From NCBI RefSeq assembly GCF_016722765.1, contig NZ_JAEQND010000001.1:372001-436000 (forward strand): 64,000 nt of DNA, written 5' to 3'. The position numbers and the translations under genes are program-made. Below are positions 17,392 through 37,892 of the stretch, piece after piece (position 1 is the first letter of the stretch; each line of letters opens with the position of its first letter). Below the pieces are notes generated by a model that saw nothing but the letters and a program-made list of their open reading frames with translations, searched no databases and had not been told where the DNA came from. The DNA is from Ramlibacter alkalitolerans. Lineage in GTDB: Bacteria > Pseudomonadota > Gammaproteobacteria > Burkholderiales > Burkholderiaceae_C.

Positions 17392-18519
17392 TCAGCGCGG
17401 GTACAGCATGCGGATGCGGCGCAGCCAGCGCTGCATGCGAAAACGCACGATGCTGTGGTACGCCCAGAGATAGCTCACGATGAAAAGCAGCGTGAAGCCC
17501 GCGAGGACGGCGGTGTGGCGCCAGAACAGGATCGCCGGCAGCACCGTCAGCAGGGTGAAGCCCCACAGGTAGGGCGAGGTGCGGTTGTTGCGCATCAGCA
17601 TGCGGCGCGACGCGTCGTCGTGGAACACCTGGCGCACCAGGCGGCGGTAGATCAGCTGGTGGAAATGCAATGCGTCCGCCAGGCTGGGCGACTGCCCGCG
17701 CACCACCTTGCGGTAGATCGAGAAGATCGCTTCCCAGATCGGGTAGATCAGAAGCAGGATCGGGAACCAGGGCGAGACCTCCGGATGACGCTGCACCAGC
17801 TGCACGCCCGAGATGCCCAGCACCAGCCCCCACAGGTAGGCGCCGCCGTCGCCGGCGAAGATCATCCCGTGCGGGTAGTTCCACACCAGGAAGCCCAGGG
17901 TGACGCCGGCCAGCACCGTCACGCTGGCGGCCAGCTGCCGGTCCCCGAGCTGCATCGCGATGTGCACCAGCGCGGCGCAGCAGATCAGGGCCACCGTGCC
18001 GGCCAGCCCGTTGTAGCCGTCGATCAGGTTGAAGGCGTGCGGCAGTCCCGCGAGCGCCAGCACGGCGACGGCCACCTGCAGCCAGTGCGCCTGCGCCCAG
18101 AGGCCATCGAGCACCGGCAGCCCGGTGCGCGGCACCAGCAGTCCGAACAGCAGCACCGCGAGCAAGGCGGCCAGCCCGGTGCTGACGAAGCGCAGGCGCG
18201 CCGGCAGGCGGTGCGTGAGGTCTTCCACCACGCCGGAGGCGCAGCCCGCGAGCGCCACGATCCACCAGGAGCCCGCGAGCCCGCCGTCGAACGGAATGCC
18301 GTGGTCGACGCCGAACAGCGGCTGCGCCAGCGCCAGCCAGGCCCAGCCCATGCTGCAGGCGAGGAACATGGCCGCACCGCCCAGGCGCGGCACGTGGCCG
18401 CTGTGGAAGCGCTGCGGCATCCACTCGCTGTAGCGTCGGCCGTTCTCCTCGCCGAGTCGGATCACCAGGCCGCAGCAGAGCGCTGCCGCGGCGGCGCAGA
18501 GGATGAGGACGAGGGTCAT
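17392..18519 (-). CDS. Undecaprenyl-phosphate glycosyl-1-phosphate transferase (WecA/WbpL/MraY family)
   Basis: A 375-residue polytopic membrane protein with about ten hydrophobic segments. It carries the family blocks HSGHVPRLGGAAMF near residue 40, NLIDGYNGLAG in the middle, and FAGDGGAYLWG with the catalytic Asp. The first acidic motif, usually DD, reads VVEDLTHRL, as in WbpL-like members rather than E. coli WecA. It would transfer a sugar-1-phosphate (often GlcNAc-1-P or FucNAc-1-P) from UDP-sugar to undecaprenyl phosphate, starting the glycan on the cytoplasmic face. It is the last gene of the cluster and overlaps the preceding glycosyltransferase gene by 4 bp. Confidence 0.88.
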   Translation of the reverse strand: MTLVLILCAAAAALCCGLVIRLGEENGRRYSEWMPQRFHSGHVPRLGGAAMFLACSMGWAWLALAQPLFGVDHGIPFDGGLAGSWWIVALAGCASGVVEDLTHRLPARLRFVSTGLAALLAVLLFGLLVPRTGLPVLDGLWAQAHWLQVAVAVLALAGLPHAFNLIDGYNGLAGTVALICCAALVHIAMQLGDRQLAASVTVLAGVTLGFLVWNYPHGMIFAGDGGAYLWGLVLGISGVQLVQRHPEVSPWFPILLLIYPIWEAIFSIYRKVVRGQSPSLADALHFHQLIYRRLVRQVFHDDASRRMLMRNNRTSPYLWGFTLLTVLPAILFWRHTAVLAGFTLLFIVSYLWAYHSIVRFRMQRWLRRIRMLYPR

Positions 18520-19709
18520 GGGGTGGGCGGCGCCAGTTCGCGCCGTTTCTGCGACGGCGGCGGGGCAGGAGATGCGCTGGGCGCAGGCACGTGGTAGACC
18601 TTGAGCGTCGCGGCAATCACGACGTCGTCGGAGAACTCCCGAACGGCGCGTTCGCGCCCCCGCTGCCCGAAGCGACGACGCAGCGCAGCGTCCCGCACCA
18701 GGCGTTCCAGCGCGTTCGCGAGGGCTACGGCGTCCTTGGGTGGCACCAGCAAGCCGTTCTCCTCGTGCGTGACCGTTTCACGGCAGCCGGGGACATCGGT
18801 GGTGACCAGTGGCAGCCCGCAGGCCAGCGCCTCCAGCGAGGACTTCGGCAGTCCTTCGCGGTAGGACGGCAGGCACGCGATGTCGGTGTCCTGCCAGACG
18901 CGCAGGATGTCCTGCTGGTGGCCGAGCCACTCGATGAGGCCTTCGCGCATCCATTCCCGCAGCACGGCCTCCGGCACGCACGAAGGATTCACCGCATCGA
19001 GCCCGCCCACCAGCCGGAAGTGCGCCGGCACGCCGCGCGCGCGCAGCAGGCGCGCAGCCTCGACGAATTCGGCCACGCCCTTGTCGTACAGCATGCGCGC
19101 CACCAGGGACACCACGGGCGTGCGTGGCTTCGGCGGCACCGGCCGGAAGTGGCGCACATCGACGCCTGCGCCGCGGATCAGCACCGCCCGCTCGGGGTCC
19201 ACCGCGCCGGTGGCCACGAAATGGCGCAGGTCGTCGGGGTTTTCGAACACCGCCATGCCGTCTCCGACCTGGAGTGTGAAACGCAGCACCGCCTTCACCA
19301 GCGGACGCAGCAGGCGTGCCTTGAGCTGGTTCGACGTGAACACCCAGCCCATGCCCACCAGCGCGTTGACGACGTGCATGGGCGGCAGCGTGTGCGCCAG
19401 GAACCCGCCGTACAGCACCGGCTTCATCGCGATCTGGTGCACGATGTCCGGCTTCTCGCGCTTGTAGATGGCGCGGATGCGGGCCAGCGAGGCGAGCTCC
19501 TCGAGCCAGTGAAGGCTGCCGCGCGCCATGTTGAGGGGCAGCACGCGGAAACCTTCGGCACGGATGCGCGCGCCGTGCTGGCGGATGTTGGTCACGACCA
19601 CCACCTCCAGCCCGGCGTCGCGCGCAGCGCGGGCCCGCGGCAGGAAATGCGAATAGAAGAAGGCGTCCTCGACGACGAGGAACAGCAGCTTGCGAGGGGG
19701 CCGGTTCAT
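18516..19709 (-). CDS. Glycosyltransferase family 4 (GT-B)
   Basis: A 397-residue cytosolic retaining glycosyltransferase. The N-terminal acceptor domain (KLLFLVVEDAFFYSHFLPRA) matches Glyco_trans_4-type proteins related to WbpT/PglA enzymes that add the second sugar to an undecaprenyl-PP-linked residue. The C-terminal donor domain has VSLVARMLYDKGVAEFVEAA, EWLGHQQDI, and the E-x7-E nucleotide-sugar motif in SYREGLPKSSLEALACGLP. The C terminus is a Pro/Ala-rich tail (APSASPAPPPSQKRR) not seen in the fold proper. It overlaps the GT2 gene upstream and the WecA-like gene downstream by 4 bp each, so all are translationally linked. Confidence 0.87.
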   Translation of the reverse strand: MNRPPRKLLFLVVEDAFFYSHFLPRARAARDAGLEVVVVTNIRQHGARIRAEGFRVLPLNMARGSLHWLEELASLARIRAIYKREKPDIVHQIAMKPVLYGGFLAHTLPPMHVVNALVGMGWVFTSNQLKARLLRPLVKAVLRFTLQVGDGMAVFENPDDLRHFVATGAVDPERAVLIRGAGVDVRHFRPVPPKPRTPVVSLVARMLYDKGVAEFVEAARLLRARGVPAHFRLVGGLDAVNPSCVPEAVLREWMREGLIEWLGHQQDILRVWQDTDIACLPSYREGLPKSSLEALACGLPLVTTDVPGCRETVTHEENGLLVPPKDAVALANALERLVRDAALRRRFGQRGRERAVREFSDDVVIAATLKVYHVPAPSASPAPPPSQKRRELAPPTP

Positions 19710-20566
19710 GCGCGTCCCTCCAGGGCCAGGGCGAGTTCCCGCAGCGTCGCCGGATCGAGCTGCGCGTGGTGGGGATGCACACGGTAGCCGGAGCGCCGCC
19801 CCGCCGCGGCGGCGACGTCGCGACCGGACTTCAGGGCGCCGCAGGCCAGCGCCAGCATGACCCCGCTCCACTCCCGCCGCAGCGCGAGCAGCCGCACCTG
19901 CGCCAGCAACTGCGAACGCCGCGCCACCAGCAGCTTGCGCAGGTCCGGCGCGGCCAACCGATACGCCAACAGGACTTCGGGCACGCAGGCATAGCGGCTC
20001 GTGACGCTCGCCCGCACCAGCAGTTCCTGGTCTTCGGCCCGGACCACCTCCGGGATGCGGTACGGATTCCGCATGAACCACTCGCGCCTGCCGAGCCACG
20101 TCGGATGCGGCAGCGGAATGGTGTGCCAGGGGCGGGCGCACAGCGCCTCGTGCGAGGCGGCAAAGGGAAGCAAGCCGAGGACCTCGCCAGCTTGCCGGAA
20201 GACCGCGGCGCGGCAGCCCACGAGGTCCACCTCCGGGTGCGCCGAGAGGTACGTGCTCTGCACTTCGAAGCGCCGCGGCAGGCAGATGTCGTCGGCATCC
20301 ATCCGCGCGATGAGCTCGCCACGCGCGAGCCGCACGCCCTGGTTCAGCCGCGCGGCAAGCCCGATCCGCCGGGCATCCTCGTGCACCTGGATGCGCCCGT
20401 CTCCGAGAGTGCGCGCCATTGCGGGGCCGCCATCATCGGAGCCGTCGTCGAGCACCAGGACCTCGAAGTCACCGAAGGTCTGCCCCAGGAGCGAGAGAAG
20501 TGCATCGCGGAGGTAAGGCATGCCGTTGCGCACCGGCAGCAACACGGAGATGGTCGGCCGGTTCAT
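19706..20566 (-). CDS. Glycosyltransferase family 2
   Basis: A 286-residue GT-A inverting glycosyltransferase: ISVLLPVRNGMPYLRDALLS at the start, VLDDGSDDGG, and the metal-binding DxD region RMDADDICLPRRFE near residue 92. The region PHPTWLGRREWF and the AEDQELLVRA block following it are typical of O-antigen GT2 enzymes. Donor and acceptor cannot be read from the sequence. In this cluster rhamnose is the most abundant predicted donor, so rhamnosyl transfer is plausible. Four-bp overlaps join it to both neighbours. Confidence 0.87.
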   Translation of the reverse strand: MNRPTISVLLPVRNGMPYLRDALLSLLGQTFGDFEVLVLDDGSDDGGPAMARTLGDGRIQVHEDARRIGLAARLNQGVRLARGELIARMDADDICLPRRFEVQSTYLSAHPEVDLVGCRAAVFRQAGEVLGLLPFAASHEALCARPWHTIPLPHPTWLGRREWFMRNPYRIPEVVRAEDQELLVRASVTSRYACVPEVLLAYRLAAPDLRKLLVARRSQLLAQVRLLALRREWSGVMLALACGALKSGRDVAAAAGRRSGYRVHPHHAQLDPATLRELALALEGRA

Positions 20567-21576
20567 CGCTGCCCCCCGAGGTAGCCGAGGGACCTCGCGA
20601 TGCGCTTGAGTGGTTGCCGGATGGCCGCGGGCACATGCGGGTAGAGGCGGTAGAACGCCTTCAGGGCCAGCTGCTTGGGCGGATGGGCGCGCACGCGCGC
20701 AAGCAGCAGGCGCCAGCCGTGAGGGGCACGCCGAAGCATCTCCTCCAGGCAGGTAGGATCGGCCGGCAGCGCGACCCCGTAGCGCACGAAGTCCCCCACC
20801 TGGCGAATCCGGAACCGCCGGAACAGGTGGTGCCAGCCGCGTCGCACCTGCGGCAGCTCGCGTTGCGCCGGAGTGAACTTGGCGAACATCATGAGGGCTT
20901 CGCCAAGCTCCACCCGCGCGTCGTCACGGCACACCTGCGTGACCTGGTGCGACGCATTGGTCGGCGTGCTGATCAGGGCATCGCCCGTGCAGGCGAAGCG
21001 GCCATTGCGCATCAGCAGGCGGTAGTAGTAGTCGACATCCACCAGCCACTTCATGCGGCGGTCATAGTCGATGCCGACCCGCCGCCGGCAGATCGTCGCG
21101 CTCGGCGCACCGATGCAGTTGCCCAGGAACAGCGTAGCGGGGTCCGCACGCAGGTCCGCCAGTTGTTGCGCGCTGGCGGCGTGAACGCGTTGCACGCCCG
21201 AGTCCACGTGCACGACGCGACTGCCGGCAAAAGCGAAATCCGCCTCAGGATCGGCGTCGAGCAGTTCGACGAAGCGCCGCAGCGCATCCGGCCGCGTGAA
21301 GTGGTCGTCGTGGTGCAGGATCTTCACGTACTCGCCCCGCGCAAGCCGGATCGAGGCGTTCCAGTTCTCCGGCGAACCGAGCGCCGGCTCGTTGCGCACA
21401 TAGGTCAGCCGATCTCCGAAATCGAACTCCGACAGCAGCGCACGCACGCTGTCGTCGGGCGAATCGTCGCTGACGATCAGCTCATAGTCCTGGAATTCCT
21501 GTTCGGCGACGCTGCGCAGCGTCTCGCGCAGGTACTCCACCTGGCGGTACGCAGGAATGCAGATCGAGACCTTCAC
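20563..21576 (-). CDS. Glycosyltransferase family 2
   Basis: A 337-residue GT-A enzyme with VSICIPAYRQVEYLRETLRS, VSDDSPDDSV and the DxD region KILHHDDHFTRPDALRRF, where HHDD replaces the common DxD form. The C-terminal 110 residues hold helices and a basic stretch (AIRQPLKRIARSLGYLG) that may sit on the membrane surface. Its substrate is unknown. It is one of four successive GT2 genes of the cluster, linked by 4-bp stop/start overlaps. Confidence 0.86.
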   Translation of the reverse strand: MKVSICIPAYRQVEYLRETLRSVAEQEFQDYELIVSDDSPDDSVRALLSEFDFGDRLTYVRNEPALGSPENWNASIRLARGEYVKILHHDDHFTRPDALRRFVELLDADPEADFAFAGSRVVHVDSGVQRVHAASAQQLADLRADPATLFLGNCIGAPSATICRRRVGIDYDRRMKWLVDVDYYYRLLMRNGRFACTGDALISTPTNASHQVTQVCRDDARVELGEALMMFAKFTPAQRELPQVRRGWHHLFRRFRIRQVGDFVRYGVALPADPTCLEEMLRRAPHGWRLLLARVRAHPPKQLALKAFYRLYPHVPAAIRQPLKRIARSLGYLGGQR

Positions 21577-22502
21577 AGCATGCGCTCCAACACCCGGATG
21601 ACCTTGCGCACTGCGCGCTGCCGCAATCCCGCAGGGGGCGTGACCAGGGCGGGCGCGGGCGCGGCCGGCGTCTCGCCGGCCTGCGCCGGAACCACGCCGA
21701 AGTGCTCACGCGCCCACCACAGCGACGCCAGCAGTTCGGCCTTGCGCTGTTCGACCAGCGACTTGCAGCGGGCCCACGCCTCGCGGTTGCGGCGCTGGCG
21801 CTCCCCTTCTCCCTCGCCGCCCATGAGCGAGAGGTTCGTGTTGCGCGCGCCGGTGCTCACGTGGTACGTGCAGGTGAACTCCTCGACCACGGCCGGCTCA
21901 TGATGGAACGCCAGGCGCAGCAGGAAGTCCCAGTCTTCCGACCGGTCCAGGTCTTCGCAGAAGGGCCGCTCGCGCAAGGCGGGCACGAGGCGCTCCCGGT
22001 CGATCAGCACGCTGTGGATCGGCAGGAAATTCTCGTTCCACAAGGACTGCAGCGAGAAGCGATGGCGCCGGAAGGGACGGCTCTCGCTGACCGTTGCCAG
22101 CGCATCGTCCTCCTTGCGCAGCACCGCCTGGCCATACGCCCAGGCCGACCCCGTGGACTGCATCGCCTGGACCAGCAGGCGCAGGTGCTCCGGTTCCAGC
22201 GAGTCGTCGTCGTCGAGGAAACCGAGATAGCGCCCCCGCCCCGCCGCCCAGCCGATGTTCAGGTTTTCGGCACGGCGGTCGCCGCAGCCGGGATTGCGCA
22301 GCACGCGCACCGGCAGCCGCGCGAATTCGCCGGGCAGCCGCTGCATGTCGTCCCAGTCGGCGCCTTCGGGGCCCTGGTACACCACGACGACTTCCAGTGG
22401 TCGCCAGGTGTTCGCGGCCGCGCTGCCGAGAGCACGCCGGATCTCGCGCGGCCGCCCCCCGACCGTCCGCATCACCAGGGTGACGGGCACACCCGTATCC
22501 AT
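21573..22502 (-). CDS. Glycosyltransferase family 2
   Basis: A 309-residue GT-A protein: VTLVMRTVGGRPREIRRAL, VVVYQGPEGADWDD, and the donor/metal motif GFLDDDDSLEPEHLRLL. The N-terminal part departs from the usual VSVIIPxYN pattern (it reads VMRTVGGRP), resembling GT2 enzymes whose first loop is modified. The ATG at 22502 overlaps the stop of the upstream gene as ATGA; a start 10 codons earlier is open but unlikely. The last 40 residues are Ala/Pro/Val-rich followed by a basic tail (RQRAVRKVIRVLERML). Confidence 0.83.
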   Translation of the reverse strand: MDTGVPVTLVMRTVGGRPREIRRALGSAAANTWRPLEVVVVYQGPEGADWDDMQRLPGEFARLPVRVLRNPGCGDRRAENLNIGWAAGRGRYLGFLDDDDSLEPEHLRLLVQAMQSTGSAWAYGQAVLRKEDDALATVSESRPFRRHRFSLQSLWNENFLPIHSVLIDRERLVPALRERPFCEDLDRSEDWDFLLRLAFHHEPAVVEEFTCTYHVSTGARNTNLSLMGGEGEGERQRRNREAWARCKSLVEQRKAELLASLWWAREHFGVVPAQAGETPAAPAPALVTPPAGLRQRAVRKVIRVLERML

Positions 22503-23590
22503 CAACGCCCCCTCATCATCGACAGCCGCCACAGCAAGGGCTTGAGCCGGCGCTTCAGCCGCGCCCGCAAGCCGGTCGCGCCCGGCGCGGCGGCCGCTGC
22601 CGCCTCGCCGGGCGCAACGTAGCGCGCGCTGGCTTGTGCGGCGGCCAGTGCGCCCAGGTCGGCACCGACCCGCTGCGCCGCTTCGCGGAACTTGCCGCGC
22701 AGGAGTTGGTGCAGCTCGCCGGCATCCCAGTAGGCGGTGCCCGCGTTGGCGTCCTCGAGCCGCCCCAGCCAGTCAGCCAGGGCTGCGAGGTAGTCCGCGC
22801 GCGGCAGCGGTCGCTCCAGGATGACGCTTTCGTGCAGGGCGACGTCCTCCGGCGTCGGGTCGATGCCGGCCTCCTGCAGCATCTGGCGCCGCACGCGCAG
22901 CGAGGCCTCGTACTGCCTCGCCGAAGAATCGGAGCTGACCTGCTGCGGATGAAGCCGGTAGTCGAGGACCACGTCCGGCAGGTTGGCCGCCCGGACCTGC
23001 AGCAGCAGCCGGCTCCACAGGTGGTAGTCCTCGGCATGCTTGAACGCATCGTCGTAACGGAACAGCCCCTGGTCCACCAGTTCGCGGCGGAACATCAGTG
23101 CGGGATGCGCCAGCGGGCAATAGAACAGCATCGCGGGGCGGATGCCCTCGTGCGCCTGCGGGAAACGGAAAACGTTCGGCTGCGGAATGTTGCCGAAGAA
23201 GCGGATCGCGCCGCCGACGATGCCGACGAGCGGATGGGCGCGCAGGAATTCCACCTGGCGGCGAAAGCGCGTCGGTTCGCAGACGTCGTCGGCGTCCATC
23301 CGCGCGATCAGCGGCGCGCGGCACTGGGCGTACGCGCGGTGCAGCGTCGCGATCAGGCCCATGTTGCGCTCGTTGCGCAGCAGCCGCACGCGCGGGTCCT
23401 GCGCCAGAGGTTCGAGCAGGCGCGCGGTCTCGTCGGTCGACCCATCGTCGACCACCAGCAGCTCGAAGTCGTCGAAGTCCTGGGCGAGCACGCTCGCCAG
23501 CGCCTCCTGCACGTAGCGGGCAGCGTTGTAGGTGGGCACCACGACGCTGAGCGCCGGGGTCGATGTTTGCTGCGTCACAGTCGCACCCAT
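22502..23590 (-). CDS. Glycosyltransferase family 2
   Basis: A 362-residue GT-A enzyme with LSVVVPTYNAARYVQEALAS, VVDDGSTDETA and RMDADDVCEPTRFRRQVEF, the canonical nucleotide-binding and DxD motifs. The middle holds HPALMFRRELV and the AEDYHLWSRLL block shared with rhamnosyl- and galactosyl-transferases. The C terminus has a basic helix (LRARLKRRLKPLLWRL) likely to touch the membrane. Two starts are possible: ATG at 23590 and a GTG at 23578 that would give a GTGA 4-bp overlap with the upstream fucosyltransferase, in keeping with the rest of the operon. Confidence 0.87.
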   Translation of the reverse strand: MGATVTQQTSTPALSVVVPTYNAARYVQEALASVLAQDFDDFELLVVDDGSTDETARLLEPLAQDPRVRLLRNERNMGLIATLHRAYAQCRAPLIARMDADDVCEPTRFRRQVEFLRAHPLVGIVGGAIRFFGNIPQPNVFRFPQAHEGIRPAMLFYCPLAHPALMFRRELVDQGLFRYDDAFKHAEDYHLWSRLLLQVRAANLPDVVLDYRLHPQQVSSDSSARQYEASLRVRRQMLQEAGIDPTPEDVALHESVILERPLPRADYLAALADWLGRLEDANAGTAYWDAGELHQLLRGKFREAAQRVGADLGALAAAQASARYVAPGEAAAAAAPGATGLRARLKRRLKPLLWRLSMMRGR

Positions 23591-24435
23591 CGTTCGGGGA
23601 CCAGGTCGCGCGCGTCGGGCGTGCCGGCAGCGAACCAGCGCTGCGGCGCGACCGTGATCGCGCCCGGCCTGGCATCGAGCCACGCACCCCACCAGCTGAA
23701 GGAGCTGTTGGCGATCACGTGGTGGCGGCATGCGCTCATGAGGCGCAGGTCTTCGTAGTTGGTGGCCGCGTCGTTGTTGCGCACCAGGTGCATCTCGCAG
23801 CCGAGGCGCAGGTTGGCCGCCACCCAATCGGGATCGTCGGAGAACACGAACAATACCGGCTCAGTGCCGAGCGCTTGCCGAACGTGCTCCACGGCGCGCC
23901 GGTAGTAGCCCAGGTCGCAGGTGCCGTGCACCGCGTTGGCGGAAGGATTGGTCACGTAGTCGCCGCGGCGCACGTGCAGCGAGACCGAGGGAGTGGCGGC
24001 GATGCGCTCCAGCCAGCGCGCGTTCTCCGCGCTCGGCGCGTGGCGCACGGTGAAGTCCTGGCGGATGGCCTCCGCGCAATGCGCGAAGTACTTCTCGCTC
24101 TGCCAATACCCATCGAGGTACACGCCGTCCGGCAGGGAGGCGATCTCGGGGTCGAAGGTGAACGCGCGCTCGGTCACCAGGCGCAGCGGCGTGCGCATGA
24201 AGGGCCTGAGGAGGCGGTTCAGCCGGCTTTCGTTGACCGCGCCGGGCAGTTGGTCGGCCGGTGCATCGACCAGTTCAGCGCGGAAGCTGTCCAGGCCGAA
24301 GGCGTGCGTCTTGTACTCGGCGAAGGCCCGCCGGTCGATGCGCAACGGCGCCCCGCGGCGCAGGGCCAGGGCCCGGCCGGCGGCGTACTGGAACATCTGG
24401 TTGCCGAGACCGCCGATGAGACGGGAGACGATCAT
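23575..24435 (-). CDS. Glycosyltransferase family 11, alpha-1,2-fucosyltransferase-like
   Basis: A 286-residue GT11 enzyme. It shows the N-terminal GGLGNQMFQYAAGRALA, the GDP-binding motif HVRRGDYV near residue 153 and the C-terminal ANSSFSWWGAWL, the three conserved blocks of prokaryotic alpha-1,2-fucosyltransferases such as WbsJ, WbiQ and FutC. These enzymes transfer L-fucose, or in some O antigens the related colitose, from the GDP-sugar to a hydroxyl at C2 of galactose-like acceptors. GDP-sugar genes (gmd, fcl-like and colD-like) lie 5-7 kb upstream in the same operon, supplying the donor. It overlaps the fusion gene upstream by 4 bp. Confidence 0.92.
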   Translation of the reverse strand: MIVSRLIGGLGNQMFQYAAGRALALRRGAPLRIDRRAFAEYKTHAFGLDSFRAELVDAPADQLPGAVNESRLNRLLRPFMRTPLRLVTERAFTFDPEIASLPDGVYLDGYWQSEKYFAHCAEAIRQDFTVRHAPSAENARWLERIAATPSVSLHVRRGDYVTNPSANAVHGTCDLGYYRRAVEHVRQALGTEPVLFVFSDDPDWVAANLRLGCEMHLVRNNDAATNYEDLRLMSACRHHVIANSSFSWWGAWLDARPGAITVAPQRWFAAGTPDARDLVPERWVRL

Positions 24436-26171
24436 GACGCGGGGTCCTTGCGTTGCCAGTTTTCCCAGATGAAGGGGAAGTAGTAGGTCTGGTCGTGGGT
24501 GGCGCGCAGCCGCTCCTGGATCTTCAGCATCCGCTCGCGCGCGTCCGGAACGAAGTCATGGAACTGGACCTGCAGGTTGCGCACGCGCCCGGCCAGGCCG
24601 CAATCGAGCAGGTGGTCGAGCAATTCATATTCGCCCCCCTCGATGTTCACCTTCATCAGGGCGATTTCGTTCCAGCCGTTCTCCTCGATCACGTGCCGCA
24701 AGCCCTGGACGCGCGCCGGCACGCTCTGCGCCGCTGAAACGAGCGTGGAGGAGGCGTCGCCGTCGACCGAGATGGTGATCGTGCCGTCGGCGGCGCCGAG
24801 CGCAGCCTCGTGCACCTGGACGTTCGGATTGCCCGCGAAGCGCCGGCGGATCGCCTCGGCGAAGTGCGGCACCGGCTCGAACACATGGACCTTGCACAGG
24901 TAGCGGCCGAAGATGTCGCTGGCCCACTGCCCTTCGAAGCCGCCGACGTCCAGCACGACCTCGCCGGGAGCAATGGCGTAGTCCAGGCGCAGCGTGTGGT
25001 CGCCGTTGGCGCGTACCCAGCTGCCATGCGCGACCTGCTTGAGCGTCGGCAACGGGGGGGGCGGCGGGGGTGGTGGGGGCGGTGGCGGAGGACGCGGCGG
25101 CGGTGGCGGTGGGAGGGGGCTCAAACCGTCCGCGAACTCCAGCAGGCCCCAGCCGGAAACGCGCAGCGCGCCCGCGACGAGCCGTCCCACCCCTTTCGGG
25201 CGCTCTTCCGAAAGCGGCGCCGTCGCAACCGGAACCGGCGGCGAAGCTTCCACTGCCGGCGCCGGTTCGGGCACGGCGCCGTCAGGATAGAGACGCAGCA
25301 TCCGGGCGGCCGAAGCGGGTTGCGTGACGAGTTCGCGCACGATCTGCTCCGCGTTGGCGAAGAACTGGAGATGATCGAGATAGTGGCGCCGGGCCCGTCC
25401 GATCGCCGGCAGGCGTGCCTCGTAGTCGCCGGGATCCGCGAGCAGCGCCTCGATGCGTTCGGCGGCGGCACCCGCATCCAGCCCCGGGAGGTCGATCCAG
25501 CCCCCCTCCGGGAGGTACTCGGCGACATTCGTGCAGCCGTGGTACAGCGGAACGCACCACGCGAGCAGTGCGTCGGGCAGCTTCTCCGTCAGCCAGTCGG
25601 CCGAGCGATGGTTCTCCAGCACCACCGCATAGCGGTAGCGGGACAACAGGTCCCAGCTGGAGGAAAAATCGCGCAGCCCCCGGCCCCAGACGTCCACGCG
25701 CGAGCCGAGTCGCGCCTTCAGGCCCAGCGCGAACTGCAGGCGCTCGCGATGGCCCGGCGTGAAGACCTTGTCGGACGTGATCAGGCAGACGTCGGCGCGC
25801 TTGGCCGGTGGCGCAAGCGACAGCAGTTCGTCGTAGCTCTTCTCGACGAACCAGGGATGGCCCTGCTGCCGCCGCACCAGCCCGGGATGGGTGATGTCCT
25901 GGCGGGCGCTCACCACGCGGGCGAACTGCGCCAGGAAACGTTCTTCGTAGCGACCGATGCCATCCGGCTCGCCGCTGATGAAGACCGTGCGCTCCGGCGA
26001 ACAGACCGACTGCTGCGGTGCCGCCATCGATTCGAAGACGATCCAGGCGTCGCAGCGCTCCACCTCGGTGTCCACATGGAAGCGCAGGTCGCCCCACACC
26101 AGCGTGCCGCCGGGGGTCTGGCGCGCCCACGGCCAGTGGGGCGCGCAGGTGGTGATCCTCACGTTCAGCAT
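24432..26171 (-). CDS. Fusion protein: GT10-like glycosyltransferase, polyproline linker, FkbM-type methyltransferase
   Basis: A 579-residue two-domain protein. Residues about 1-290 look like a GT10 fucosyltransferase: the C-terminal GDP-fucose region reads YRYAVVLENHRSADWLTEKL (179-198) then CVPLYHGCTNVAEYLPEGGW, matching the FENS...YVTEKL...VPVV pattern of alpha-1,3/4-fucosyltransferases. Residues 354-373 are an almost unbroken proline run. From about 377 to the end lies an FkbM methyltransferase domain with the SAM motif VVLDVGGFEGQWAS, HVFEPVP and LMKVNIEGGEYELLDHLL. It would transfer a 6-deoxyhexose and O-methylate a sugar, possibly the same residue. The start lies 1 bp after the wzt stop. 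Domain assignment is firm for FkbM, moderate for GT10; the coupling is inference. Confidence 0.85.
   Translation of the reverse strand: MLNVRITTCAPHWPWARQTPGGTLVWGDLRFHVDTEVERCDAWIVFESMAAPQQSVCSPERTVFISGEPDGIGRYEERFLAQFARVVSARQDITHPGLVRRQQGHPWFVEKSYDELLSLAPPAKRADVCLITSDKVFTPGHRERLQFALGLKARLGSRVDVWGRGLRDFSSSWDLLSRYRYAVVLENHRSADWLTEKLPDALLAWCVPLYHGCTNVAEYLPEGGWIDLPGLDAGAAAERIEALLADPGDYEARLPAIGRARRHYLDHLQFFANAEQIVRELVTQPASAARMLRLYPDGAVPEPAPAVEASPPVPVATAPLSEERPKGVGRLVAGALRVSGWGLLEFADGLSPLPPPPPPRPPPPPPPPPPPPPLPTLKQVAHGSWVRANGDHTLRLDYAIAPGEVVLDVGGFEGQWASDIFGRYLCKVHVFEPVPHFAEAIRRRFAGNPNVQVHEAALGAADGTITISVDGDASSTLVSAAQSVPARVQGLRHVIEENGWNEIALMKVNIEGGEYELLDHLLDCGLAGRVRNLQVQFHDFVPDARERMLKIQERLRATHDQTYYFPFIWENWQRKDPAS
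25053..25112 (-). repeat. Proline-codon tract (polyPro linker of the GT10/FkbM fusion)
   Basis: Sixty bases encoding 20 residues, 19 Pro and one Arg. On the + strand it is almost pure G with runs of 8 and 5 (25054-25061, 25066-25070). Codons CCG, CCC, CCA are mixed, so it is not a simple unit repeat, but the 8-base G run is a likely slippage point and the tract could form G-quadruplex DNA. Confidence 0.85.
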
Positions 26172-26172
26172 C

Positions 26173-27414
26173 TCAGTTCGCCAGCCGCTCCACCCGCCAG
26201 GCGGGATCGAGGTACACGTAGCCGAAGGACTGCTCGCGCGCGTGCTGCACGTTGTACAGAGCGGGCCGGCTGACACGGAACGGCTGCACTGCACGGCTGC
26301 CGAAGAAATCGCGCACCCCGAATTCGCTGCAGTGGACCTCCAGCACATAGTCGCCGGCGACCAGGAACTCGGCCGGCAAGGAAGCCGCCGCACGGTACGT
26401 GCCGCGCTCGACGTGCTCGCGCTGCGGCGCACGATCGGCGAGCAGTGCGCGGGTGACGATCTCGCCGGTGATCGTCTTGACATAGAAGCCGAAGCGGAAA
26501 TTGGAGAGTGGCTCGTGCACGTGGTACACCAGATCGAGGTCGACCGCCGCGCCCCCGTCGACGGTGAACGTGCGCGTGGGCTCGCCACCCTGGCTGATCG
26601 TGATCCCCAGCAGGTCGACTTCGTCCGTGTGGATCGGGAAGTTCGCGCCCTGGGACCGCACGACGTGGCGCATGTAGTCGCCGACCACCTGCTCCACCCT
26701 GGTCTTTTCCTGGATGCGCCCTTTTTCCATCAGGATCGCGGTTTCGCACAGTTCCTTCACCGCGCCCATGCTGTGGCTGACGAACAGCACCGTGCGGCCC
26801 TGCGCCGCCAGCTCGCGCATCTTCGCGTACGACTTCTGCTGGAACCCCGCGTCGCCAACCGAGAGCACCTCGTCGAGGACAACGATGTCGGGCTCCAGGA
26901 AGGCGGACACCGCGAACGCAAGGCGCACGTACATCCCGCTGGAGTAATGCTTCACGGGCGTATCGAGGAAGCGTTCCACCTCCGCGAAATCGACGATGGC
27001 GTCGAATTTCCGGCGGACTTCGGAGCGCGACATGCCCATCACGGCGCCGTTCAGGTAGATGTTCTCGCGCCCGGTGAGCTCCGGATGGAAGCCGGTGCCG
27101 ACCTCCAGCAGGCTGCTCATGCGGCCGCGGATCTGGATGCGGCCTTCGCTGGGGCTCATCACCCGCGACAGGATCTTCAGCAGCGTGGACTTGCCGGCAC
27201 CGTTGCGGCCGACGATGGCCAGGCGCTCGCCCTCTTCCACTTCGAAGTTGACGTCGCGCAGCGCCCAGAACACCTCGTCGGGCGCCTCGGTGGTCTGCTT
27301 GCGCAGCAGGCCCGTGAGACGACCGAGCGGCCCGCGTCCGCCGTTCGCCCGCTCCTTCTCGTGGTGGAGGGTGAACTTCTTGGAAATGCCTTCGACGACG
27401 ACGGATTTGCTCAC
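26173..27414 (-). CDS. wzt: Polysaccharide ABC exporter ATP-binding protein Wzt with C-terminal carbohydrate-binding region
   Basis: A 413-residue ATPase. Residues about 1-245 are the nucleotide-binding domain: Walker A GRNGAGKSTLLK, Q loop at GFHPELTGRENIYLN, signature HYSSGMYVRLAFAVSA and Walker B IVVLDEVLSVGDAGFQ, the pattern of O-antigen/teichoic-acid exporters. Residues about 255-413 are an extra beta-rich region (VDLLGITISQGGEPTRTFTV, LVYHVHEPLSNFRFGFYVKT) like the Wzt C-terminal domain that recognises the modified end of the finished chain in E. coli O8/O9a. It thus predicts export of a chain capped in the cytoplasm. The wzm gene ends 3 bp upstream, and the GT10/FkbM fusion begins 1 bp downstream. 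Confidence 0.93.
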   Translation of the reverse strand: MSKSVVVEGISKKFTLHHEKERANGGRGPLGRLTGLLRKQTTEAPDEVFWALRDVNFEVEEGERLAIVGRNGAGKSTLLKILSRVMSPSEGRIQIRGRMSSLLEVGTGFHPELTGRENIYLNGAVMGMSRSEVRRKFDAIVDFAEVERFLDTPVKHYSSGMYVRLAFAVSAFLEPDIVVLDEVLSVGDAGFQQKSYAKMRELAAQGRTVLFVSHSMGAVKELCETAILMEKGRIQEKTRVEQVVGDYMRHVVRSQGANFPIHTDEVDLLGITISQGGEPTRTFTVDGGAAVDLDLVYHVHEPLSNFRFGFYVKTITGEIVTRALLADRAPQREHVERGTYRAAASLPAEFLVAGDYVLEVHCSEFGVRDFFGSRAVQPFRVSRPALYNVQHAREQSFGYVYLDPAWRVERLAN

Positions 27415-27417
27415 GAT

Positions 27418-28305
27418 TTACAGGGCATCGGCGAAATGGTGCTCGCTGCGGCGGAAGAAGCGCAGGCCGGGCAGCAGAAGCAGGAAGGTGATGCACACCG
27501 ACAGGGCCACTGCGGGCCAGCGCAGCGGCTGGGAGTCGCCGAGCAGGCACCAGCGGAATCCGTCGATGATGCCCACCATGGGATTGAGCGCGTAGACCAG
27601 GGCCCACTTGCCCGTCACGACGGTGCTCGCGAATCCGACCGGCGACAGGTAGGCGCCCAGCTGCAGCACCACCGGCAGCAGGTGGCGGAAGTCGCGGTAC
27701 CAAACCCCCAGAGCGGAGACCCACAGGCCGCAGGCGAGGATCAGCAGGCACAGTTGCGCCAGGAACAGCGGCAGCAACAGGACCTGCGGCCCCGGTGAGT
27801 GGCGGAACACCAGCGACATCACCACGTACACCACCATGGCGATCAGGAAGTCCACCAGTCCCACCAGCACCGAACTGACCGGGATGATCAGCCGCGGGAA
27901 GTACACCTTGGAGACGATGTTCGCGTTGCCGATGACGCTGTTGCTGGCATCCGAGAAGCTGGCGGAGAAGAACAACCAGGGCAGCAGGCCGGCGAACACC
28001 AGCAGCGCGTAAGGCGCGCCGTTGGACGGCATGTTGGCGAGCCGGCCGAAGATGAACGTGAACACCAGCATGGTCGCCAGCGGACGCAGCAGCGCCCAGC
28101 TCAGGCCCATGACCGTCTGCCGGTAGCGGACCACGACATCGCGCCAGACGATCATCCCGAGCAGTTCCCGGCTGGCCCAGAGTTCGCGCCAGTACTGGGT
28201 GCCGTCCGGTTCGGACGTGATGGTGACGACCGGGCGCTGGTCCGGCGCGGCGCCCGCCGCCGGCACCGGGGTCGCCTCCGTGCTCGGGATCACGTGATCG
28301 TTCAT
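27418..28305 (-). CDS. wzm: Polysaccharide ABC exporter permease Wzm
   Basis: A 295-residue membrane protein of the ABC-2 type with six hydrophobic segments after a 60-residue cytoplasmic N terminus. Signatures are RDVVVRYRQTVMGLSWALLRPL just before TM1, the FTFIFGRLANMPSNGAPYAL loop, GNANIVSKVYFPRLIIPVS, and NPMVGIIDGFRWCLLG, all characteristic of Wzm/TagG exporters. Together with Wzt it moves undecaprenyl-PP-linked polysaccharide across the inner membrane. Its start overlaps the stop of the ColD-like aminotransferase-family gene by 4 bp. Confidence 0.93.
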   Translation of the reverse strand: MNDHVIPSTEATPVPAAGAAPDQRPVVTITSEPDGTQYWRELWASRELLGMIVWRDVVVRYRQTVMGLSWALLRPLATMLVFTFIFGRLANMPSNGAPYALLVFAGLLPWLFFSASFSDASNSVIGNANIVSKVYFPRLIIPVSSVLVGLVDFLIAMVVYVVMSLVFRHSPGPQVLLLPLFLAQLCLLILACGLWVSALGVWYRDFRHLLPVVLQLGAYLSPVGFASTVVTGKWALVYALNPMVGIIDGFRWCLLGDSQPLRWPAVALSVCITFLLLLPGLRFFRRSEHHFADAL

Positions 28306-29483
28306 CGCCCGGTCAGCTCGTCCAGCGCCGCACGCAAGGTCCGGAACTCGTCGTCAAGGGGGTAATGATGGTTGCCGATGAACAGGCCGCTGGCGTCCAG
28401 GTCGTCCGCGTTCGCCAGCGTGCCGTGGATGCTGTAGTCGAACCAGCGCAGCACCTCGTTCTTGGCGAAGTTGCCGGCGACGATGGGCCGGCAGTCGATG
28501 CCGTGTGCGGTAAAGACACGCACCACGTCGGCCCGCGTGAAAGGCGCGTCCGGCTGCACGATCATGCTGAAGCCGAACCAGCTGCTCTCCCCGATCTCGC
28601 GCTGCGTGCGCAACTGCGGGTAGCGGGCCAACAGGTCCAGGAAGCGGGCAGCATTGCGCCGGCGCGCCTCCACCATCGCGGGCAGCTTGCGCAGCTGCTG
28701 CGTGCCGATCGCGCCGCTCATCTCCAGCGGCCGCAGGTTGTAGCCGGGCAGAACGAACTTGAACGACTCGACGAAGGCGTCGTCGCTCTTGGTTCCGGTG
28801 ACCTTGTTGTGTTTCGGCAGGTTGCGCGTCCAGCCGTGGGCGCGCAAGGACAGCATCAGGTGGTACAGCTCCTCGTCGTCGGTGACGACCATGCCGCCTT
28901 CCATCGTGGAGATGTGGTGGCTGAAGAAGGCGCTGTAGCTGCCCATCGCGCCGAAGGTACCGGCTTGCCTGCCCCCCAGGCGCGCGCCGAGCGACTCGCA
29001 GTTGTCCTCGATCACGACGATGTCCCGCCCGGCGACGATGCGCTCGATGCGTTCGAAGTCGTTCGGGTTCCCCAGCAGGTTCACCGCCATGATGGCGCGG
29101 GTCGCCGCGCCCACGGCGCCCTGCAGCGCCTCGAGGTCGTAGTTCAGCGTCTCGCGGTCGACGTCGACGAACTTCAGCTTCAGCCCGTACTGCTGCAGCG
29201 GGTGGTAGGTGGTGCTCCAGGAGACGGCCGGCACGATGATTTCGTCACCCGGCAGCAGCGGTCTGTCCTTGCGAAAGCGCAGCGCCGCGACCATCAGCAG
29301 GTTGGCCGAGGAGCCGGAGTTCGCCATCACGCAGTAGCGGCTGCCCACGTACTCGGCGAACTGGCGCTCGAAGTCGGCGACGCGCGGCCCCATGGAATAC
29401 ATGCCCGAGGCGATCACCGACTGGATCGCATCGATCTCCTGCTGGTCCCAGGTGGTCGTTGCCAGCGGATACGGTTTGTTCAT
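28302..29483 (-). CDS. ColD/RfbH-like PLP-dependent sugar 3-dehydratase (DegT/DnrJ/EryC1/StrS fold)
   Basis: A 393-residue PLP enzyme of the sugar aminotransferase family: NSGSSANLLMVAALRF near residue 55, IVPAVSWSTTYHPLQQYG, VVIEDNCESLGARLGGRQAG. At the position of the PLP-binding Lys the sequence reads AFFSHHISTMEGG, so His189 replaces Lys. This change is the mark of the 3-deoxygenating members, GDP-4-keto-6-deoxy-D-mannose 3-dehydratase (ColD, His188) and the CDP-sugar dehydrase E1 (RfbH). No ferredoxin-type reductase partner (needed by E1) is seen, and gmd lies in the same operon, so a ColD-like role leading to GDP-colitose is favoured. An ordinary aminotransferase is unlikely without the Lys. 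Confidence 0.85.
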   Translation of the reverse strand: MNKPYPLATTTWDQQEIDAIQSVIASGMYSMGPRVADFERQFAEYVGSRYCVMANSGSSANLLMVAALRFRKDRPLLPGDEIIVPAVSWSTTYHPLQQYGLKLKFVDVDRETLNYDLEALQGAVGAATRAIMAVNLLGNPNDFERIERIVAGRDIVVIEDNCESLGARLGGRQAGTFGAMGSYSAFFSHHISTMEGGMVVTDDEELYHLMLSLRAHGWTRNLPKHNKVTGTKSDDAFVESFKFVLPGYNLRPLEMSGAIGTQQLRKLPAMVEARRRNAARFLDLLARYPQLRTQREIGESSWFGFSMIVQPDAPFTRADVVRVFTAHGIDCRPIVAGNFAKNEVLRWFDYSIHGTLANADDLDASGLFIGNHHYPLDDEFRTLRAALDELTGR

Positions 29484-30424
29484 CGTGCGACCCCGTCAAG
29501 GCTCAGGTAGTGGTTGTAGGTGGCCCGGATGCCGTCTTCCAGGCTCGTGGCCGGAGCCCATCCCCAGGCCGCTTGAAGCTCGGTGGAGACCAGCTTCTGC
29601 TTCATGCCGGCCGGCTTGCTCGTGTCGTGCACGAAGCGGCCGTCCCAGCCGATCACCTCAGCCGCGATCCGGTAGTAGTCGTTTACCGAGTGGTCACGGC
29701 CGACGCCCACGTTCATCATCTGCGGCAGCGGGTCGAAGGCGCCTACCGCGCGCCAGATCGCGTCCGCGAGGTCGGGCGCAAACATGAACTCGCGGCGCGC
29801 GCTGCCATCGCCCCAGATCTCCACTTCCGCCCGGCCCTGTACCTTGGCGGTGTGGACCTTGTGGATGATGGCGGGCACGAGGTGCGAGTGCTTCGGATCG
29901 AACTTGTCGTGCGGACCGTACAGGTTGCAGGGGATCAGGGTCTTGTACGAGAGCTCGGGGCGTTCGCGGCCGACGTACTGGCACAGCCGCGCCACAGCGA
30001 TCTTGGCCAGCGCGTAGCCCTCGTTGGTGGGCTCCAGTTCCCCCTGCAGGACCGCGCTTTCCGTCAGCGGGTTGTGCGCTTCGCGCGGGTACATGCAGGA
30101 ACTGCCGAGGTTCAGCAGCCGCGGCACGCCGGCCTCGCGGGCGGCCATCACGATGTTGCGGCCCAGGTCGAGGTTCGTGACGAGGAAATCCACCGGCGCT
30201 GCAATGTTGGCCTGGATGCCGCCGACCCGGCCGGCCGCGTGGATCACGATCTCCGGTTGCAGCTTGCGAATGAAATCCGCTGTCGCCCGCGCATCGCGCA
30301 AGTCGAGTTCCCGGCTGCTCGGCGCGACGACGTTCCAGTGGCTGGCGGCCGGGAATTCCAGGACGTTGCGACCCACCATGCCACTGCCGCCCGTCAGCAG
30401 GACGGTCCCTCTCTGCCTGTTCAT
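29480..30424 (-). CDS. fcl: GDP-L-fucose synthase family (GDP-4-keto-6-deoxy-D-mannose 3,5-epimerase/4-reductase; or ColC-like)
   Basis: A 314-residue extended SDR. It shows the NADP motif TGGSGMVGRNVL, VIHAAGRVGGIQAN, the Ser block LNLGSSCMYPR and the catalytic YALAKI (Tyr-x3-Lys), then NLYGPHDKFDPKHSHLVPA, the signature of GDP-fucose synthase. ColC, which makes GDP-L-colitose by C5 epimerisation and C4 reduction, is a close relative and cannot be told apart by these motifs. It starts 5 bp after gmd and overlaps the ColD-like gene by 4 bp. Whether it acts on the GDP-4-keto-6-deoxymannose itself (fucose) or on the ColD product (colitose), or both, is open. Confidence 0.9.
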   Translation of the reverse strand: MNRQRGTVLLTGGSGMVGRNVLEFPAASHWNVVAPSSRELDLRDARATADFIRKLQPEIVIHAAGRVGGIQANIAAPVDFLVTNLDLGRNIVMAAREAGVPRLLNLGSSCMYPREAHNPLTESAVLQGELEPTNEGYALAKIAVARLCQYVGRERPELSYKTLIPCNLYGPHDKFDPKHSHLVPAIIHKVHTAKVQGRAEVEIWGDGSARREFMFAPDLADAIWRAVGAFDPLPQMMNVGVGRDHSVNDYYRIAAEVIGWDGRFVHDTSKPAGMKQKLVSTELQAAWGWAPATSLEDGIRATYNHYLSLDGVAR

Positions 30425-30429
30425 CGCGT

Positions 30430-31518
30430 TCAACCCTGGTTGCGCAGCGCCTTGTGGCCGCGGGCCTGGACCTCGAGGTCGAACTGGGCAGCCTTCAGGT
30501 CGGCCTCCGCCATCTCGCGCACGAGTTCCTTGAAGGGGGTACGCGGAGTCCATCCGAGCTTCTGCCGCGCCTTGCTCGCATCGCCCAGCAGGGTCTGGAC
30601 TTCCGTCGGACGGAAGTAGCGGGGATCGACCTCCACCACGCAGCGGCCGGCAGGATCGAACGCCTTTTCATCCACGCCTTCGCCCTTCCACTCCAGCTTC
30701 ATGCCCAGCACGGCGGCCGTCGCGTCGACGAATTCGCGCACGCTGTACTGCACCCCGGTGGCGATGACGAAATCCTCCGGCCGGTCCTGCTGCAGCATCA
30801 GCCATTGCATCTCCACATAGTCGCGCGCATGCCCCCAGTCGCGCAGTGCGCCCAGGTTGCCCAGGTACAGCCGCTCCTGCAGCCCCAGCTTGATGCGCGC
30901 CAGCGCTTGCGTGATCTTGCGGGTGACGAAGGTCTCCCCCCGCACCGGCGACTCGTGGTTGAACAGGATGCCGTTGCAGGCGTAGAGGCCGTAGGCCTCA
31001 CGGTAGTTCACCGTGATCCAGTACGCGTACAGCTTGGCCACCGCATAGGGGCTGCGCGGGTAGAAGGGCGTGGTTTCCTTCTGCGGCACTTCCTGCACCA
31101 GGCCATACAGCTCGGAGGTGGAGGCCTGGTAGAAGCGCGTCTTCTTCTCCAGCCCGAGGATGCGGATCGCCTCCAGCATCCGCAGGGGCCCCAGGGCATC
31201 CGAATTGGCCGTGTATTCCGGCTCCTCGAACGACACGGCCACATGGCTCTGGGCCGCGAGGTTGTAGATCTCGTCGGGGCGCACCTTGGCGATGATGTGG
31301 ATGAGGCTGGACGAATCCGTCATGTCGCCGTGGTGCAGCACGAAACGGCCATCGGAGACGTGCGGATCCTGGAACAGGTGGTCGATGCGGTCGGTGTTGA
31401 ACAGCGACGTGCGGCGCTTGATTCCGTGCACCTCGTAGCCCTTGTCAAGCAGGAGCTCGGCAAGATAGGCACCGTCCTGGCCGGTCACACCGGTGATCAA
31501 AGCAACTTTTCTGGTCAT
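30430..31518 (-). CDS. gmd: GDP-mannose 4,6-dehydratase
   Basis: A 362-residue extended SDR that converts GDP-D-mannose to GDP-4-keto-6-deoxy-D-mannose, the branch point to GDP-fucose, GDP-colitose, GDP-perosamine and GDP-rhamnose. Diagnostic segments are [42 protein letters not shown]-like ([16 protein letters not shown]), the Thr/Ser block QASTSELYG with the [10 protein letters not shown] Tyr-Lys pair, and [17 protein letters not shown]. It is separated from rfbC by 165 bp, the largest gap inside the polysaccharide cluster, so a promoter probably lies there. Confidence 0.96.
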
Positions 31519-37195: not shown

Positions 37196-37312
37196 GCCTG
37201 TCCTCCTTCCGGTTCGTGTCTGCAGGCGATTCTGCATCAGCGACCTGCATGGACGCACCTGCGAACCGGCTCCTCCGTTTAGTGCAGTTCGTCTACAAAA
37301 ACGCTGCGGCGG

Positions 37313-37325
37313 AGCTAAAGTAGCT
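37313..37325. promoter_or_regulatory. Short palindrome upstream of the phasin gene
   Basis: AGCTA and TAGCT separated by AAG, 24 bp upstream of the phasin start within the 154-bp divergent gap to the fatty acyl-CoA reductase gene. It could be a regulator site for the local TetR protein; it is short and may be chance. Confidence 0.25.
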
Positions 37326-37349
37326 TCGAAGGCACGCAAAGGAGATGCA

Positions 37350-37892
37350 ATGGTCACGAAACTGCGGAAGACCGGCGAAGAGCAGGCCACGGCGCCGGGC
37401 GAAGCGTCCGACCTGGCTGGCACGGTGAAGGAATCGGCGCAGCAGATCTGGCTGGCCGGCCTCGGCGCCTTCTCCAAGGCGCAGGCCGAAGGCGGCAAGG
37501 TGTTCCAGACCCTGGTCAAGGAAGGCCTCACCATCCAGAAGCGCACCCAGGTCGCGGCCGGCGAGAAACTCACGGACGCGACCAGCCGCATGGCCTCGAT
37601 GGCCAGCGACCTGTCGAACAAGGCCTCGGGCCAGTGGGACAAGCTGGAAACGATCTTCGAGGAACGCGTGGCGCGCGCACTGAAGAAGCTGGGCGTGCCC
37701 ACCTCGCGCGAGATCGAGGAGCTGGTGTCGCGCATCGAGGAACTGAATCGCACCGTCGCGGCCCTGGGCGGCGGCCAGGTGGCCGCGCGCAAGGCAGCGC
37801 GCAAGTCGGCGGCGCGCACCGAAGCCGTGAAGCGGCCGGTCGCGAAGGCGGTGCGCAAGCGCGCGCCGGGGCGCAAGACCGGCAGCCAGTGA
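37350..37892 (+). CDS. Phasin family / PHA granule-associated protein
   Basis: A 180-residue cytoplasmic protein. Residues about 22-125 are helical and match the poly(3-hydroxyalkanoate) granule-associated PhaI/PhaF type: VKESAQQIWLAGLGAFSKAQ, EGGKVFQTLVKEGL, then FEERVARALKKLGVPTSREI and EELVSRIEELNRTV. The last 45 residues are an Ala/Lys/Arg-rich, AlgP/histone H1-like tail (ARKAARKSAARTEAVKRP) that in PhaF binds DNA. It likely coats storage granules and may attach them to the nucleoid. A strong ribosome site (aaaggag) precedes the ATG. It overlaps the patatin gene by GTGA. Confidence 0.9.
   Translation: MVTKLRKTGEEQATAPGEASDLAGTVKESAQQIWLAGLGAFSKAQAEGGKVFQTLVKEGLTIQKRTQVAAGEKLTDATSRMASMASDLSNKASGQWDKLETIFEERVARALKKLGVPTSREIEELVSRIEELNRTVAALGGGQVAARKAARKSAARTEAVKRPVAKAVRKRAPGRKTGSQ

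Follow-up and report, generated by a model that had tools for sequence, protein, structure and literature searches.

Results

We describe a fusion gene on the minus strand of a 64,000-nucleotide stretch of the Ramlibacter alkalitolerans genome (contig NZ_JAEQND010000001.1, positions 372,001 to 436,000), which is referred to below, at its whole length, as the window. The gene joins a GT10 glycosyltransferase to an FkbM-family, S-adenosylmethionine (SAM)-dependent methyltransferase, with a run of prolines between them. Its open reading frame (24432..26171) encodes 579 amino acids between an ATG at 26171 and a TGA at 24432 and has no internal stops. Along the protein lie a GT-B-like GT10 half (residues 1-300; 25272..26171), a 22-residue helix (residues 329-350; 25122..25187) assigned by DSSP on a structural model with a predicted local distance difference test score (pLDDT) of ~66, a polyproline stretch of 19 prolines and one arginine (residues 354-373; 25053..25112), and the methyltransferase part (residues 374-579; 24435..25052). 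Pfam finds the GT10 and FkbM domains alone in this protein, both above their cut-offs. A sequence-only reading of the same DNA had proposed this gene at these positions with a linker of 19 prolines and one arginine; the two domains and the polyproline are confirmed here, and residues 354-373 match the described composition exactly. The gene starts one base past the Wzt stop and overlaps the downstream GT11 gene by four bases (ATGA). Because similar layouts occur in a syntenic operon of Cupriavidus pauculus (locus L042) and in genome G478 (locus L082), an assembly error is unlikely.

The GT10 assignment made in that reading is borne out by profile and by fold. PF00852 matches residues 124-250 (25422-25802) at 33.2 bits (Pfam cut-off 23.9) and is the sole GT10 match in the genome; the NCBIfam scan gave no model match for GT10 or GT11. 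Since the full-length model rendered the GT10 half poorly, this half (310 residues) was modeled separately with 33 sequences, giving a mean pLDDT of 95.4. When this model was compared to the PDB using Foldseek, the first 18 rows were all GT10 enzymes, headed by Helicobacter pylori FucT (E 2.5e-10); in the fold search with the full-length model, GT10 enzymes were absent among the best 50 rows shown. The same GT10 fucosyltransferases were retrieved by a nine-sequence GT10 profile (E 8.6e-14). In a TEK motif, E196 and K197 align with E249 and K250 of H. pylori FucT, residues of a type that we take to serve the donor site in GT10 enzymes, and they mark a candidate donor site; across 33 GT10 rows, K197 is invariant and E196 is present in at least 90%. 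On these matches, the GT10 half is predicted to transfer a fucosyl or colitosyl residue.

The methyltransferase part is matched by PF05050 at residues 408-519 (24615-24950; 30.8 bits, cut-off 22.7) and by TIGR01444 (62.1 bits, cut-off 37.7). In the full-length model, residues 401-579 have a pLDDT of ~93, and the rows that this model gave in Foldseek belong to class I SAM methyltransferases. The SAM-site motif is retained, with D408, G410, G414, E432 and P433 as invariant columns in 29 rows; this, with the fold match, agrees with the functional SAM site that the sequence-only reading presupposed. A sequence profile of 29 subfamily members matched no solved structure convincingly; the single row obtained had E 0.96 for its best stretch. 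The FkbM domain would accordingly be read as a candidate methyl-transferring domain. The same reading had expected GT-B and methyltransferase folds joined by a flexible linker; GT-B-like and class I methyltransferase halves were both recovered, and the linker is probably not a general flexible one (see below).

Upstream of the fusion gene, on the same strand, lie genes for Wzt, the ATPase of a polysaccharide ATP-binding cassette (ABC) exporter, with a C-terminal part (26173..27414; Wzt_C 29.7 bits, cut-off 30.4); a Wzm-like permease (27418..28305), assigned from 56 bits to the Wzm model (cut-off 380) together with synteny; a ColD orthologue, GDP-4-keto-6-deoxymannose 3-dehydratase (28302..29483); an Fcl-like epimerase/reductase that is probably ColC, GDP-L-colitose synthase (29480..30424; 298 bits to NF047922, cut-off 500); and gmd, encoding GDP-mannose 4,6-dehydratase (30430..31518; TIGR01472 585 bits, cut-off 415). 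Downstream lie the GT11 gene, of the alpha-1,2-fucosyl/colitosyltransferase family (23575..24435; PF01531, 120 bits), and, in the same gene row and on the same strand, four GT2-type glycosyltransferases identified by Pfam (19706..23605).

Aminotransferases bind pyridoxal phosphate through a lysine. At this place the DegT-family protein of the operon has His-His instead (SHHISTMEGG), and it scores 530-536 bits to PDB ColD chains against at most 173 bits for the next 3-dehydrases and aminotransferases. Gmd, ColD and ColC together make GDP-L-colitose by an established pathway. Because the operon's DegT protein is a ColD orthologue, the donor is likely GDP-L-colitose rather than GDP-fucose, and, judging from sequence, L-colitose (3-deoxy-L-fucose) is the most probable transferred sugar, followed by L-fucose. 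The fucose-type donor of the sequence-only reading is thereby kept as to GT10 family, and O-methyl-colitose had been named there as an option; its GDP-fucose would probably give way to GDP-L-colitose on account of ColD. No other strong Fcl-like protein occurs in the genome: that of the operon scores 297 bits and the runner-up 63. Together with its counterparts in the two other GT10-FkbM operons, the operon's protein scores 292-315 bits to the GDP-fucose synthase model, against 415-522 bits for the proteins of all six other loci tested; just one of the latter reaches the cut-off of 500, and the three from ColD-bearing loci score 415-460. In a tree, the three fusion-operon proteins group together (97/96), and the adjoining row comes from a locus without ColD. 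These scores support a distinct enzyme group and are no proof of ColC. Mammalian FUT2 (annotated for fucose) and bacterial WbgN (annotated for colitose) are each reported to transfer both sugars (PMC11987014), so GT10 and GT11 would fit either colitose or fucose.

The GT10-FkbM fusion was found in three genomes: that of the window, C. pauculus 19C6 (L042) and G478 (L082). The idea that it is unique to its own genome was therefore dropped. In L042 the order is that of the window (gmd, fcl-like, ColD, Wzm, Wzt, fusion, GT11, GT2), and the fusion comprises GT10, 18 prolines and FkbM. In L082 the order is again that of the window, except that one GT2 separates the fusion from GT11, and this fusion lacks prolines. 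ColD in both operons retains the His-His motif. The same domain order, which the sequence-only reading had suggested looking for in other genomes, is thus present in two of them. Its statement that no well-described enzyme has this make-up holds to the extent that no description was found among the literature matches listed, and is qualified by the occurrence in three genomes. Among those matches there was no FkbM-fucosyltransferase fusion, no polyproline in such enzymes and no O-methyl colitose or fucose in O-antigens, which is weak evidence of absence.

Split and alternative versions also occur. In a Bacteroidota metagenome-assembled genome (MAG; L061), GT10 and FkbM are separate genes touching by one base; Wzm and Wzt precede the pair, and fcl, a His-His DegT gene and GT11 follow it. 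L067 is nearly identical. A GT11-FkbM fusion is encoded at L013:544-2100 (= L090:7044-8600; Methylibium MAG / genome G095), with a stand-alone GT10 directly after it. Other subfamily FkbM domains are fused to GT2 (L063), to a second FkbM (L044) or, in a Nomurabacteria MAG (L057:1029-3731), to GT2 and a sub-cut-off Glycos_transf_1-like part in a single 901-residue frame. At L052:5086-6582, FkbM is fused behind a weak sulfotransferase-like part (under Pfam cut-offs) and adjoins GT10. The occurrence of GT10-FkbM and GT11-FkbM fusions alongside separate neighboring genes suggests which steps are coupled.

By sequence scores, the methyltransferase of the window is a member of a distinct FkbM subfamily, whose members score 137-248 bits to its FkbM domain against less than 35 bits for the other FkbM proteins fetched. 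With an FkbM hidden Markov model (HMM), nine new members scored 209-277 bits and control proteins 25-70 bits. The subfamily is rare: at E 1e-25, an order sample of 399 genomes contained five with a member and a phylum sample of 398 contained six, with the window's own genome counted in both. Its members are spread over nine phyla (Pseudomonadota, Bacteroidota, Planctomycetota, Spirochaetota, Actinomycetota, Bacillota, Bdellovibrionota, Omnitrophota and Nomurabacteria), a placement taken from record titles and tree labels, mainly of MAGs, in which binning errors are possible. Searches of genome contigs returned 31 loci with the FkbM half and no relatives with the GT10 half. Three of the 31 were dropped, namely L065 (which coincides with L090), L069 (alternative genetic code, with frames broken by table 11) and L071 (22% identity, a non-member). 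The 28 kept and nine from a further genome search (L082-L090) make up 37 loci, in which the near-identical L061 and L067 are both counted. Plasmid searches yielded distant FkbM alone (four records, at most 31% identity) and two GT10s; the Neorhizobium record is unannotated. At L069:5905-8467, in a Gracilibacteria MAG, FkbM, GT11 and a GT10-like gene (GT10-like by motif) stand in a row under genetic code 25.

Gene neighborhoods were compared using HMMs built from the window and its relatives' loci, with thresholds set by the analyst (80 bits for GT11, 50 for GT10, 200 for gmd, 120 for fcl, 300 for DegT, 120 for Wzm and 200 for Wzt). Within ~6 kb, GT11 is present in 26 of the 37 subfamily loci, GT10 in 15, either in 29 and both in 12; 33 loci have at least one of GT10, GT11, gmd, fcl and ColD-like DegT. 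The controls were 20 of 27 genomes with a non-member FkbM match. At equal thresholds, GT10, GT11, gmd, fcl and ColD are absent from all 20 of these loci, and two have Wzm/Wzt. In a Spirochaetes MAG locus (L062:2073-11097), the subfamily FkbM is accompanied by GT11, gmd and fcl; of the three DegT-family frames there, two have a lysine-type motif.

Proline runs stand directly before the methyltransferase domain in five of 38 subfamily rows, the window included. Their lengths are 19 in the window, 18 in C. pauculus, 12 in Herbaspirillum sp. YR522, 9 in a Planctomycetota record and at least 7 in Rhizobium, where the contig ends; in another Planctomycetota record the run is degenerate (PPLPPPSPPP). 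The run is missing in most of the 38 rows, the G478 fusion among them. In the fusion gene of the window the proline codons are mixed (CCG, CCA, CCC and CCT), and a repeat finder reported an imperfect array alone over the proline-coding DNA (73-77% matches). An origin of the prolines as a repeat artefact was dropped, because the codons vary and C. pauculus has the run at the equivalent place. The proline-bearing methyltransferases of Herbaspirillum and Planctomycetota are not fused to any glycosyltransferase. Because runs precede unfused copies at the same place, the prolines would be the methyltransferase's stalk and not a linker made by the fusion, and in sequence the run looks like part of the methyltransferase; the sequence-only reading, which had taken it as the linker between the two enzymes, probably needs revision on this point. 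Oligoproline forms a stiff helix, which favors a spacer over a flexible joint.

In a tree of FkbM domains, the window groups with C. pauculus, Herbaspirillum, Rhizobium sp. and a Rhodocyclaceae MAG (96/82), and four of these five have proline runs. The deeper order is unsettled, and no call is made on an independent origin of the G478 fusion. Within the group, the sequences indicate that the proline run is probably old, GT10 having been added in front of it or lost. The helix at residues 329-350 is basic and moderately amphipathic by a hydrophobic-moment scan. This helix was predicted for the window's protein alone; across the subfamily rows, K+R exceeds D+E in the 60 residues before the domain in 34 of 38, and many hold an amphipathic stretch. 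The helix may act as a membrane-surface anchor.

Discussion

We favor, at a probability of roughly 55%, the view that the fusion protein is a bifunctional enzyme of an ABC-exported O-polysaccharide, which would transfer colitose (or fucose) and O-methylate that residue or a neighboring one. The O-polysaccharide would be assembled in the cytoplasm and exported by Wzm/Wzt, with the fusion protein located at the inner membrane face and acting on the lipid-linked chain. There, the GT10 domain may add a galacto-series 6-deoxy-L-sugar to the growing chain, with the GDP form of the sugar as donor, and the FkbM domain would next O-methylate this residue or a similar one set by the adjacent GT11. Transfer and methylation in one step, as put forward in the sequence-only reading, is conceivable for such a polypeptide. 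Were colitose the target, O-2 and O-4 would be the only free positions. The helix and the proline rod are hypothesized to form the N-terminal stalk of the methyltransferase, with the helix probably on the membrane and the prolines keeping the catalytic domain at a distance.

Several points weigh against this view. We infer both enzymatic activities from sequence; the GT10 fold matches are distant (TM-score ~0.5, root-mean-square deviation 6-8.6 Å, identity 14-20%); and the full-length model is too weak (predicted template modeling score, pTM, 0.44) to support a claim about the mutual arrangement of the two domains. The 20 control loci come from a single order and are not confined to sugar clusters, and two of them (L098 and L108) hold weaker gmd/fcl or DegT relatives that fall under the thresholds. 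Four of the 37 subfamily loci have none of the sugar markers: L049 (an 8.2 kb contig), L054, L060 (a 4.3 kb contig) and L089. Among fcl proteins from loci without ColD, one of four passes the GDP-fucose synthase cut-off, so a low score is a weak argument for ColC. When 20 regions surrounding related GT10 genes were screened, from 20 of the 32 other genomes matched and with several regions ending at contig edges, no subfamily FkbM was found; four regions had weak 24-34-bit matches to other FkbM genes. Set beside the 29 of 37 subfamily loci with GT10 or GT11 nearby, this means that the methyltransferase tracks fucosyltransferase-type enzymes, and not the converse, in these samples. Since GT11 accompanies the subfamily more often than GT10 (26 against 15 loci), the methylated residue could also be that of GT11.

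An FkbM domain acting on the GT11-added residue, with the GT10 fusion merely co-localizing the enzymes, is possible although we hold it to be rather unlikely. The GT11-FkbM fusion of L013/L090, with its separate GT10 after it, fits such a scheme as well as the GT11 count does; three loci with GT10 and without GT11 (L052, L070 and L087), and the fusion of FkbM to GT10 in three genomes, do not. Tentatively, and at less than an even chance, we entertain decoration of every repeat without length control, in which GT10 would add a side-branch sugar and FkbM would methylate that sugar or a backbone sugar such as rhamnose. A complex repeat is suggested by the four GT2 genes, GT11, a further transferase and the rmlA- and rmlC-like genes of the window, and subfamily members are also fused to GT2 or stand beside GT11 alone. 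A rhamnose target, however, would leave the tracking of GT10/GT11 by FkbM unexplained (rml genes were counted in the window only). That the operon yields GDP-L-fucose for an ordinary GT10 fucosyltransferase seems improbable to us. It is true that the Fcl-like protein matches PDB GDP-fucose synthases at 263 bits and that gmd and fcl occur without a ColD-like DegT in L044, L051, L062, L084 and L085, but the operon holds a ColD orthologue, its Fcl-like protein has no strong second copy in the genome, and the Fcl-like proteins of the three fusion operons score below those of all six other loci tested.

We likewise give little credence to a chain terminator with a stalk, in which the fusion would cap the finished O-chain with a methylated colitose or fucose and the C-terminal part of Wzt would read the cap before export. 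A membrane helix and a rigid proline rod would then set the distance from the membrane to the capping site in a WbdD-like manner, the rod replacing the coiled coil. Published terminators have an amphipathic helix and a rigid spacer besides their catalytic part, and come with a Wzt that bears a cap-reading module (PMC11231755). The fusion follows wzm-wzt directly in the window, L042 and L082, and proline runs of at least 7 to 19 residues are found in the five rows noted above, the window's included, besides the degenerate one. A long Wzt frame (399-438 amino acids, stop to stop) occurs in all nine Wzt-bearing subfamily loci, a count without a baseline in which L060 is cut by the contig end. Wzt_C scores fall just under the cut-off of 30.4 in the window (29.7), L042 (28.7) and L050 (29.7), whereas the L082 Wzt has no Wzt_C match at 1e-4. 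Pfam finds no kinase among the two domains of the fusion, and the model has no coiled coil between them (a 22-residue helix is followed by the prolines; no coiled-coil predictor was applied). Most relatives, including the G478 fusion, lack the prolines, and the WbdD anchor is C-terminal whereas that of the fusion would be internal or N-terminal. GT10 and GT11 enzymes, moreover, often decorate side branches.

More doubtful still is an O-antigen cap enzyme of new layout, composed of a membrane helix, a rigid polyproline II rod and a methyltransferase, from a subfamily for GDP-derived 6-deoxy-L-sugars, with GT10 in front. The same strong doubt attaches to the idea that one protein both adds and methylates a terminal colitose, with the proline rod as a spacer or ruler like the coiled coils of WbdD. 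Polyproline II rises 0.31 nm per residue, which would make 19 residues ~6 nm long. If such a cap enzyme existed, the proline lengths of the relatives (at least 7, 9, 12, 18 and 19) would be natural length variants.

The bifunctional transferase-methyltransferase that we favor can be set beside several known systems. With the GT10 fucosyltransferases (H. pylori FucT, 2nzw/2nzx; human FUT9, 8d0o) it has PF00852, the fold and the EN...TEK donor-site motif in common; it differs in its low identity in the fold alignments, its probable colitose donor and its fusion to a methyltransferase. With the FkbM family it shares the PF05050 and TIGR01444 matches and the class I fold, whereas its subfamily is separate, tied to GT10/GT11, equipped with a proline stalk in some members and without a close solved structure. 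WbdD and other ABC terminators (Escherichia coli O9a; Klebsiella pneumoniae O7 ORF6) likewise comprise a methyltransferase with further modules, a spacer and an amphipathic helix (PMC3482155, PMC11231755). The window's fusion lacks the kinase and the coiled coil, in whose place it has a proline run and a domain of fucosyltransferase type; a terminator role would here be conjectural. PMC11231755 also describes methyl-only chain termination in K. pneumoniae O5 and treats enzymes with multiple catalytic modules as common in ABC-dependent O-antigen assembly. The fusion is thus of a known multi-module kind in a GT10-FkbM variant that is new to us.

WbgN of E. coli O55:H7 is presumably a GT11 enzyme without a methyltransferase part, and hence a relative of the window's GT11 and not of its GT10. 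It is an alpha-1,2-colitosyltransferase that likewise transfers colitose to an O-antigen and takes both colitose and fucose donors (PMC11987014). In Nod factors, fucose is similarly added and then methylated by NodZ and NoeI (PMC3557214). Those are two separate gene products, in contrast to the single polypeptide of the window, and the likeness drawn here is one of function. The subfamily appears dedicated to L-fucose/L-colitose residues, in which case O-methylated 6-deoxy sugars would become predictable from sequence, and the polyproline offers a testable case of a possible structural stalk in a polysaccharide enzyme.

Other genes in the window

Beyond the four GT2 genes, profile scans identified two further minus-strand genes, one for a Glyco_trans_1-type transferase (18516-19709) and one for a WecA/MraY-like Glycos_transf_4 protein (17392-18519) that is a probable initiation enzyme. 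Near the rml genes, a large frame (35207-38938) contains Male-sterility-type NAD_binding_4 and short-chain dehydrogenase domains.

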